The position numbers and the translations under genes were made by a program. Below, in pieces: positions 1,925 through 4,463 of a stretch of DNA of 64,000 bases; position 1 is the stretch's first letter; each line of letters starts with the position of its first letter. This stretch comes from an uncultured Opitutia bacterium (GTDB taxonomy: Bacteria > Verrucomicrobiota > Verrucomicrobiia > Opitutales > Opitutaceae): positions 1-64,000 of the forward strand of contig CAIMAQ010000098.1 of the NCBI GenBank assembly GCA_903839035.1. The letters run 5' to 3'. The notes beneath the pieces are model-generated. The model was not told the DNA's origin. It did no database searches and saw only the letters and a list, made by a program, of their open reading frames with translations.

Positions 1925-3019
1925 ATGAAAATCCTAGTCGTTCAGGACTTCCTGCGCAGCGGCGGCACCGAGCGTCAGTCCATCCTGCTGTCCGGCGCCT
2001 TCGCCGCCGCCGGACATGACCCCACTTTGCTCACGTTCCGCCCGGGCGGAGCCCTAGCCGCCACCGTGAGCCCGGCCGTCACCCGCCGGGTGCTGCAATC
2101 CTTTGACACGAGACTCGACTGGTTTGCCCCCGGCCTGATCCGCGCTACAGCGGCGATCGCGCCCGACGTCGTCCTCTGCATGGGCCGGATGGCGAACTGC
2201 TACGCCGGCAGCCTCCAGAAAAAATTCCCCGCCGCGGTGGTGCTGGCCACAATGCGCACCGGCAAACCGCTGCCCGGCCTTTTTCGGCGCTCCCTGCGCA
2301 CCGTCCGGCACATCATCGCCAACAGCCAGGAAGCGAAATCCAACCTCGTCGCCCAGCATGCCCTGCCCGGCGCCAAGATCTCGGTCATCTACAACTCGCT
2401 CGTCTTTCCGCCCGATTCCTCCCGCACCCGCAACACCGCCCTCCGGGCCCATTACGGCGCGGAACCCGGCACGGCGGTTCTGATCTGCGTCGCCATGTTT
2501 CGACCGGAAAAGAATCAACGGGAGCTCATCGAACTGGTTGCAACCCTTCCCGCCGGCACCGACTGGCAACTGTGGCTCGCCGGCACCGGGCCCGCCCTTG
2601 CCGATTGCCAGCGCCTCGTGACCGACCGCGGACTCGGCGCGCGGGTCAAACTGCTCGGCTTTCAACCCGATCCCTCCGCGCTCTACCGCGCCGCCGATAT
2701 CGCCGTCCATGCCTCCCGCAGTGAGTCGCTCTCGAACTTTCTCATCGAGGCCCAGGCTCATGGCCTGCCCGCCGTCGTGTACGAAGCCCAGGGCATCGGC
2801 GAGTGCTTCCTCCCCGACCAGACCGGCTGGGTGTTGCCGCAGGGCGACCGCGCCGGGTTCCTCGCCCGGCTGCAACCCCTCCTAGCCGACGCGGCCTTCC
2901 GCCACAGCCGCGGGGCCCAGGCCCGGGCCTCGGCGAGTGCCCGGTTTGATCCCGTCGCCCAGCCGCGCGCGTATCTCGACCTTTTCACCCGGCTTGTGCA
3001 GAACTCCCCCCGGCCATGA
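1925..3019 (+). CDS. Glycosyltransferase family 4
   Basis: 364-residue GT-B fold sugar transferase, probably using a nucleotide-sugar donor to build a cell-surface glycan or glycolipid. The N-terminal domain starts KILVVQDFLRSGGTERQS, a typical GT4 acceptor-side opening. The C-terminal donor-binding domain has FRPEKNQRELIE (about residues 195-207) and the E-x7-E type region SRSESLSNFLIEAQAHGLP (about 265-285). No membrane helix is evident, so it is a cytosolic or peripheral enzyme. Its stop overlaps the start of the following DeoR-type gene (ATGA), so the two are translationally coupled. Donor and acceptor cannot be predicted. Confidence 0.9.
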   Translation: MKILVVQDFLRSGGTERQSILLSGAFAAAGHDPTLLTFRPGGALAATVSPAVTRRVLQSFDTRLDWFAPGLIRATAAIAPDVVLCMGRMANCYAGSLQKKFPAAVVLATMRTGKPLPGLFRRSLRTVRHIIANSQEAKSNLVAQHALPGAKISVIYNSLVFPPDSSRTRNTALRAHYGAEPGTAVLICVAMFRPEKNQRELIELVATLPAGTDWQLWLAGTGPALADCQRLVTDRGLGARVKLLGFQPDPSALYRAADIAVHASRSESLSNFLIEAQAHGLPAVVYEAQGIGECFLPDQTGWVLPQGDRAGFLARLQPLLADAAFRHSRGAQARASASARFDPVAQPRAYLDLFTRLVQNSPRP

Positions 3020-3780
3020 CCAGCAAGCAGCGCACTGATTCCATCGAGCGGTTCATCCGCGCCCACCAATACGCCGACCTGCACACCCTCGCGGCGAAGT
3101 TTGGCGGCTCGCTCTCCACCGTGCGGCGCGCCCTCGACCAGCTGGAGGAGCGCGGCGTCGTGCGCCGCCACCACGGTGGCGCCTCGCTGATCGAGACCGA
3201 TGTCGTGGCGCAGGAATACGACTTCATCGCCCGCAACCAGCGCCACCCCGACGAAAAATTCGCCATCGCCAGCCTCGTCGCCGCCCAGGTGCAGCCGGGC
3301 ATGACGGTGATCCTCGACGGCGGCAGCACCACCTACGCCGTCGCCCGGCTCCTCGCCGAGAAACGCCTGCAGGTCATCACCAACTCCCTCCCCGTCGCCA
3401 GCCTCTTCAGCGAGGTCGGCAGCGTGGAGACCATTGTCACCGGTGGCAGCATCTACAGCCGGCTCGGCGTCGTGCTGGGCCCGATGTGCGAGGATTTTTT
3501 CAACCAGGTCCACGCCGACCTCGCCATCCTCGGCGGCGCCGGCATCACCGAGAACGGGGTCTGGAACCACAACGCCCTCATCGTCGCCGCCCAGCGCAAG
3601 ATGATCGGCGCCGCCACCCGCAGCATCTTCGCCCTCGATAACTCCAAGTTCGGCCGCAAGGCCCTCAGCCTGACCACGCCGTTTGCGTCGCGCTTCACCA
3701 TCGTGACCGACACCCGCCCCAGCCCCGCCGTCACCCGCGCCATCTCCGCCGCCGGCGCCAAACTGACGCTCGCCCAATAG
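3016..3780 (+). CDS. DeoR/GlpR family transcriptional regulator
   Basis: 254-residue repressor-type protein. An N-terminal winged helix-turn-helix (about residues 5-55, with SLSTVRRALDQLEERGVVRRHHGGA) is followed by the DeoR C-terminal sensor domain, recognised by ILDGGSTTYAVARLL (about 98-112) and the later DNSKFGRKA segment. Family members bind phosphorylated sugars and usually repress sugar-use genes. The 4-nt overlap with the upstream glycosyltransferase suggests one transcript, an uncommon pairing that may link envelope glycan synthesis to sugar-phosphate status (inference). The effector is unknown. Confidence 0.93.
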   Translation: MTSKQRTDSIERFIRAHQYADLHTLAAKFGGSLSTVRRALDQLEERGVVRRHHGGASLIETDVVAQEYDFIARNQRHPDEKFAIASLVAAQVQPGMTVILDGGSTTYAVARLLAEKRLQVITNSLPVASLFSEVGSVETIVTGGSIYSRLGVVLGPMCEDFFNQVHADLAILGGAGITENGVWNHNALIVAAQRKMIGAATRSIFALDNSKFGRKALSLTTPFASRFTIVTDTRPSPAVTRAISAAGAKLTLAQ

Positions 3781-3825
3781 CCGGGAACGCGGCCGCCGAT
3801 TTGGGCTTGAACCGGCCGCCCGCCG

Positions 3826-3839
3826 CTATCAGCTGATAG
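3826..3839. promoter_or_regulatory. Candidate LexA operator 1 upstream of lexA
   Basis: CTATCAGCTGATAG is a perfect 14-bp palindrome of the form TATC-N4-GATA, 19 nt before the lexA start. A second copy with the same half-sites follows, centred 15 bp away. Tandem dyads at the lexA start are the usual arrangement for LexA autoregulation. Binding by this LexA is inferred from position and symmetry alone. Confidence 0.6.
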
Positions 3840-3841
3840 GC

Positions 3842-3853
3842 TATCATCCGATA
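3842..3853. promoter_or_regulatory. Candidate LexA operator 2 upstream of lexA
   Basis: TATCATCCGATA repeats the TATC-N4-GATA half-sites of the first dyad and ends 4 nt before the lexA ATG, where a Shine-Dalgarno sequence would normally be; none is visible. Both copies are preceded by GC (GCTATC). Repressor bound here would block transcription start or early elongation. Confidence 0.55.
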
Positions 3854-3857
3854 CCCT

Positions 3858-4463
3858 ATGCTCACCGAACGACAAGAGGCCGTCCTGGATTTCGTAAACG
3901 AATATCAGCGCCACCACGGGGTCGCGCCCTCAACGCGGGAAATTGCCCGCACGTTTGAGTGCAGCCAGCCCACCGCCCTCAAGCATCTCCAGTCACTCGC
4001 TCGCAAGAGCCAGTTGGACAAGCTCGCCGACGGCAAGTGGGGCTTCAAGGCCGTGCAGGTCCAGGGCCATCTCTTCTCCGCCCCCGTCTTCGGTTCGATC
4101 CCCGCCGGCTTTCCCGCCATGCAGGAGCAGACGCCTGAGGAGACGATCACCATCGACCCCGCACTCTTCGGCGTGCGCTCCGCCCGGAAGGACTATTTCT
4201 GGTTTCTGCGCGTCACGGGTGACTCCATGACCGGCGCCCACATCCTCGACGGCGACCTGATCGCCCTCGTCCGCCGGGAGCCAAAGCCGGGCGACATCAT
4301 TGCCGCCCTCGTGGATGAGACCACCACGACCCTGAAGACTTTCCTGAGGGAGAAGGGCCGGGTCCTGCTCCGCGCCGCGAATCCGCGCTACGCCGACATC
4401 TTCCCGTCGCACCTCGAGTCCCAGGGCGTCGTGGTGGGCGTGATCCGCCGGCAAGTGGCTTGA
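3858..4463 (+). CDS. lexA: LexA SOS repressor (S24 autopeptidase)
   Basis: 201 residues, the normal LexA length. The N-terminal winged helix (about 1-65, opening MLTERQEAVLDFV) is the LexA DNA-binding domain. The self-cleavage bond is A83-G84 in GSIPAGFP. The catalytic serine is S123 in GDSM and the catalytic lysine K160 in TTTLKTF. RecA-stimulated autocleavage would derepress SOS genes. Two palindromes lie immediately upstream and probably mediate autoregulation. The tandem uvrA gene starts 83 nt downstream with no terminator between, so nucleotide excision repair is likely in the same SOS unit. The recognition helix (QPTALKHLQSLAR) differs from E. coli LexA, in keeping with a different operator. 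Confidence 0.93.
   Translation: MLTERQEAVLDFVNEYQRHHGVAPSTREIARTFECSQPTALKHLQSLARKSQLDKLADGKWGFKAVQVQGHLFSAPVFGSIPAGFPAMQEQTPEETITIDPALFGVRSARKDYFWFLRVTGDSMTGAHILDGDLIALVRREPKPGDIIAALVDETTTTLKTFLREKGRVLLRAANPRYADIFPSHLESQGVVVGVIRRQVA

Follow-up and report, generated by a model that had tools for sequence, protein, structure and literature searches.

LexA is the textbook example of a regulator whose DNA target shifts between bacterial groups. The Bacillus or Gram-positive LexA box is GAAC-N4-GTTC and the E. coli LexA box is CTGT-N8-ACAG. In Verrucomicrobia the operator is reportedly TGTTC-N4-GAACA, and tandem sites before lexA are said to have been described as well. In some bacteria a second LexA with a diverged motif controls imuA-imuB-dnaE2, as does LexA2 of Pseudomonas putida. 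A total of 17 LexA motifs have been reported, and these are otherwise stable over broad bacterial groups (PMC8565304). Motif change has been modelled as a duplication of lexA, followed by the divergence of one copy and the loss of the primary copy (PMC8565304). In the searchable literature, which covers few of the subscription papers, we found neither TATC-N4-GATA described as a LexA site nor any account of an Opitutaceae LexA.

Here we describe two tandem dyads in front of lexA in an uncultured member of the Opitutaceae. The window is the whole stretch of DNA that was analysed, 64,000 nucleotides of one contig. A sequence-only reading had placed two dyads 15 bp apart before lexA, the first a perfect 14-bp palindrome, and coordinates and sequence agree with it (Table 1). 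The 15 bp are measured from centre to centre, and dyad 2 ends 3 nt before the lexA ATG. The pattern TATCNNNNGATA (TATC-N4-GATA) matches the window twice, against 0.06 matches expected from shuffles. With a weight matrix derived from the relatives' sites, the dyads score 26.1 and 21.0 in a scan of the window and the runner-up scores 10.7. The claim that the window holds no third copy with N4 spacing is confirmed by both searches.

Table 1. Features of the lexA locus, in window coordinates
Feature	Sequence or product	Coordinates	Strand	Reading and basis
-35-like element	CTTGAAC	3806..3812	+	Likely; promoter role inferred
Dyad 1	CTATC-AGCT-GATAG, CTATCAGCTGATAG	3826..3839	.	Distal LexA operator (predicted); perfect 14-bp palindrome
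Dyad 2	CTATC-ATCC-GATAC, CTATCATCCGATAC	3841..3854	.	Proximal LexA operator (predicted); TATC 3842-3845, GATA 3850-3853
lexA	201 aa; ATG at 3858	3858..4463	+	PF01726 LexA_DNA_bind and PF00717 Peptidase_S24; TIGR00498 equivalog
Recognition helix of LexA	SQPTALKHLQSLAR, residues 36-49	3963..4004 (codons)	+	Turn before it lacks one residue relative to most of the family; alignment
uvrA	Double-length, ~1,899 aa	4547..10246	+	NF001503/TIGR00630; start codon inferred; next gene after lexA

In the entire 3.39-Mb genome TATC-N4-GATA occurs at 6 places, versus 1 for the reversed control. Four of the places are away from lexA: three fall within unrelated ORFs, and one overlaps a small hypothetical gene at its start. 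This last copy, TATCCATAGATA (position 1501 of L003; G000:C79:61937-61948), lies across the start codon region of the gene, whose product is a putative small membrane protein. It is the sole exact TATC-N4-GATA of the genome at a gene start, lexA aside.

The product of the gene behind the dyads is a LexA. Both of its domains exceed the curated cut-offs (PF01726, 42.4 bits against 23.7; PF00717, 72.3 against 23.3), and it scores 120.3 with TIGR00498 (cut-off 110.95). The cleavage site A83-G84 and the catalytic residues S123 and K160 are invariant in the LexA alignment. The AlphaFold prediction for it (mean pLDDT 84.5) agrees with the Thermotoga and E. coli LexA structures, including the DNA complex 3jsp, and places the recognition helix at residues 37-49. 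No second LexA was found in the window genome, so that the lexA of the window is the only one detected.

The lexA upstream regions of the Opitutaceae were gathered for comparison, and the dyad count covered 19 promoters of the variant clade, whose LexAs have a shortened turn (see below), and 56 other promoters. The commonest dyad is TGTTC-N4-GAACA, and the motif that the sequence-only reading had named for some Verrucomicrobia is thus the majority lexA motif of this family. There are zero exact copies of it in the window genome. The window and its nearest relatives have CTATC arms in tandem dyads 14-15 bp apart, with a CTTG 27-28 bp above the distal dyad. This distance, taken to the dyad centre, is kept wherever the tandem is present in the variant-clade lexA upstream regions scanned. 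Among the close relatives L008, L009 and L017 the arms of dyad 2 are constant and its N4 centre is variable. The sister groups of the window lineage have CACTC, CATTC or TTGTC arms at lexA, and a TC-N4-GA core is common to all of these classes as well as to TGTTC and CTATC. Of the 19 variant-clade promoters, 17 have a perfect TC-N4-GA dyad with 5-bp arms no more than 60 bp from lexA (shuffle mean 0.08), and 34 of the 56 others have one too (shuffle mean 0.24). The exact CACTC palindrome of genus g18 is found at lexA in 8/8 genomes having one. Four loci of genus g38 (L029, L030, L033, L035) have no dyad in the 60 bp upstream of the LexA gene; lexA follows closely behind a conserved upstream reading frame in this genus and may be transcribed together with it.

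The operator arms co-vary with the recognition helix. In the variant LexAs the helix-turn-helix has a turn that is shorter by one residue (FECSQ versus FGFASQ in the alignment), and a tree built without the helix columns places this deletion as a single event with support of 100/97. CTATC, CACTC, CATTC or TTGTC arms are found in 19/19 rows with the deletion and in 0/42 rows without it. Turn length by itself is not unique to this clade, as the Thermotoga LexA (3k2z) aligns to the shortened turn without a gap. Within the clade, CTATC goes with SQPT, CACTC and CATTC with SQAT or NQAT, and TTGTC with SQQN or SQQG. The same pairing is found within the window's genus, where G154 has the helix SQQGAAKHL and a TTGTC operator, as in other TTGTC LexAs, and the rest have the SQPT helix with CTATC arms. 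G153, whose helix is SQPTIHKHL, has mixed TATC...GACA dyads. Only two independent pairs of helix and operator switches lie on branches with good support. Each runs the way expected, but two are too few to reach significance (sign test p = 0.5), and the co-variation is a strong association and not statistical proof.

Across 12 genomes of the genus, 10 of the 11 exact TATCANNTGATAG sites are at the starts of lexA or imuA, and the remaining one does not coincide with a repair gene. Two members of the genus in which LexA was not detected (G015 and G124) have zero exact TATCANNTGATAG sites. Both assemblies are near-complete (99-100%) and no LexA was found in them with this query, though close relatives have one. 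The variant type of LexA often heads an imuA-imuB mutagenesis cassette in the relatives. G151 contains two lexA genes of the CTATC type; each has tandem dyads, and roughly 1.3 kb downstream of each there is a match to the ImuB family. The tandem CTATC dyads of G152 directly precede imuA-imuB, with lexA on another contig, so the dyads also have a target that is separate from lexA. The window genome has neither imuB nor an imuA-imuB cassette.

We propose that the tandem dyads are very probably the operator through which the only LexA of this genome represses lexA itself and, where transcription reads through, probably uvrA too. LexA autoregulation entails a palindromic operator at the repressor's own promoter, and judged by sequence such an operator is present here. 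The suggestion of a lineage-specific LexA operator is well supported by comparative sequence evidence: the dyads are kept with lexA across the clade despite differing upstream genes, their arms track the recognition helix of LexA, and in a relative a separate imuA-imuB locus has tandem copies before it. One LexA dimer would bind each site of the CTATC-N4-GATAG type. No consensus sigma-70 promoter and no recognisable -10 hexamer were found before lexA. Dyad 1 would occupy the expected -10 position under the CTTG box, and dyad 2 would cover the start region. Occupied dyads would then block transcription of lexA and uvrA, and the RecA-stimulated self-cleavage of LexA after damage would lift the block. 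The double-length uvrA comprises two UvrA units in one protein. No terminator was found on this strand in the gap between lexA and uvrA, and the two genes are possibly co-transcribed. Their adjacency is retained in the close relatives L008, L009 and L017.

The size of the regulon is where the sequence-only reading, which is partly supported overall, departs from the results. It had expected the motif to be enriched at recA and other DNA-damage genes, and such enrichment was not found. In the window genome, which lacks imuB, neither recA nor any of the three dinB-type genes has a site by the weight scan, and recA has none by the perfect-dyad scan either. Control of recA and other SOS genes is usual for a LexA, if not invariable, and the sequence gives no indication of it here. 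The absence of a recA site does not exclude a LexA identity, since most recA genes of the family are without a perfect site. Such a dyad is found at recA in 5/41 Opitutaceae genomes, all of the TGTTC type, and in no genome of the variant-LexA groups examined. Its arms equal those at lexA in the genomes compared (for example G025, G044, G118 and G139). In this the recA upstream regions of the family (L163-L202) depart from the usual SOS core: most of them carry no perfect LexA-like dyad.

The dyads could be a LexA operator while a normal SOS regulon persists via degenerate sites that strict searches miss, which we consider unlikely. LexA sites within a genome often vary, dyad 2 is itself off consensus, and the dyads of L012 and L018 have GAAA arms. 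However, the two lexA sites score far above anything at recA, at the three dinB-type genes or elsewhere in the window, and a search allowing one mismatch revealed no clear additional promoter site at an SOS gene. A search allowing two mismatches gave 184 sites versus 154 in the control and is too noisy to use. At this stringency there is room for weaker LexA sites elsewhere in the genome. From the sequence, the targets of the window LexA are probably its own gene and perhaps uvrA next to it, and its regulon looks much smaller than had been expected.

The remaining explanations do without LexA. The dyads might be the operator of another regulator, for example the DeoR-family protein encoded directly upstream on the same strand (3016-3780). 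Yet the dyads stay at lexA in L008, L010, L012 and L019, where the upstream DNA is different, and they are also found before imuA in G152, with an arm class that tracks the LexA helix. An operator of the DeoR-like regulator is rejected as most improbable because a change of neighbours leaves the dyads in place at lexA or imuA. It is equally far-fetched that the palindromes are hairpins of the lexA leader RNA controlling translation, or a terminator of the upstream gene: concerted arm changes would preserve an RNA stem too and dyad 2 lies very close to the ATG, but the stems are weak (5 bp, A/T-rich), there is neither a T tract nor a terminator call on this strand, and a dimer bound to DNA would suit both the tandem spacing, constant at 14-15 bp, and the tie between the arms and the LexA helix. 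These candidates are rejected as well.

With LexA as the probable ligand, the CTATC arms are probably a form of TGTTC-N4-GAACA specific to this lineage, derived in co-evolution with the recognition helix of the turn-deleted LexAs. On a broader reading, which we hold with about even confidence, the turn deletion freed one Opitutaceae LexA lineage from TGTTC, giving at least four helix-paired operator classes (CTATC, CACTC, CATTC and TTGTC) and a regulon that has shrunk to lexA and to repair or mutagenesis genes close by, recA not among them. The cassette and any second LexA are missing from the window genome, which would leave a small regulon. G152 holds both a TGTTC-type LexA (L223, G152:C71) and a CTATC-type LexA (L131, G152:C1), and this two-LexA state represents a natural coexistence stage for operator divergence. 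With ancestral-type and derived repressor together in one genome, stepwise operator change becomes directly testable.

The window dyads share with the Verrucomicrobia operator TGTTC-N4-GAACA the 5-bp arms, the N4 centre, the TC-N4-GA core and the position before lexA. They differ from it in their arms, which are CTATC/GATAG in place of TGTTC/GAACA, and in the lack of a recA site in the window genome. The Bacillus and E. coli LexA boxes are likewise palindromic operators of a LexA dimer, with half-sites that differ from those of the window and, in E. coli, with a different spacing too. As in LexA2-type systems, a diverged LexA is tied to imuA-imuB in the relatives of the window. Unlike those systems, the diverged LexA is the only one in the window genome and the cassette is absent. 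The TGTTC-type and CTATC-type LexAs of G152 and the lone diverged LexA of the window genome fit the duplication and loss model (PMC8565304). The window motif is a variant, new as far as the searchable literature shows, of a known kind of operator. What makes it valuable is the fine gradation of operators and matching helices, with several classes in one family and two within one genus.
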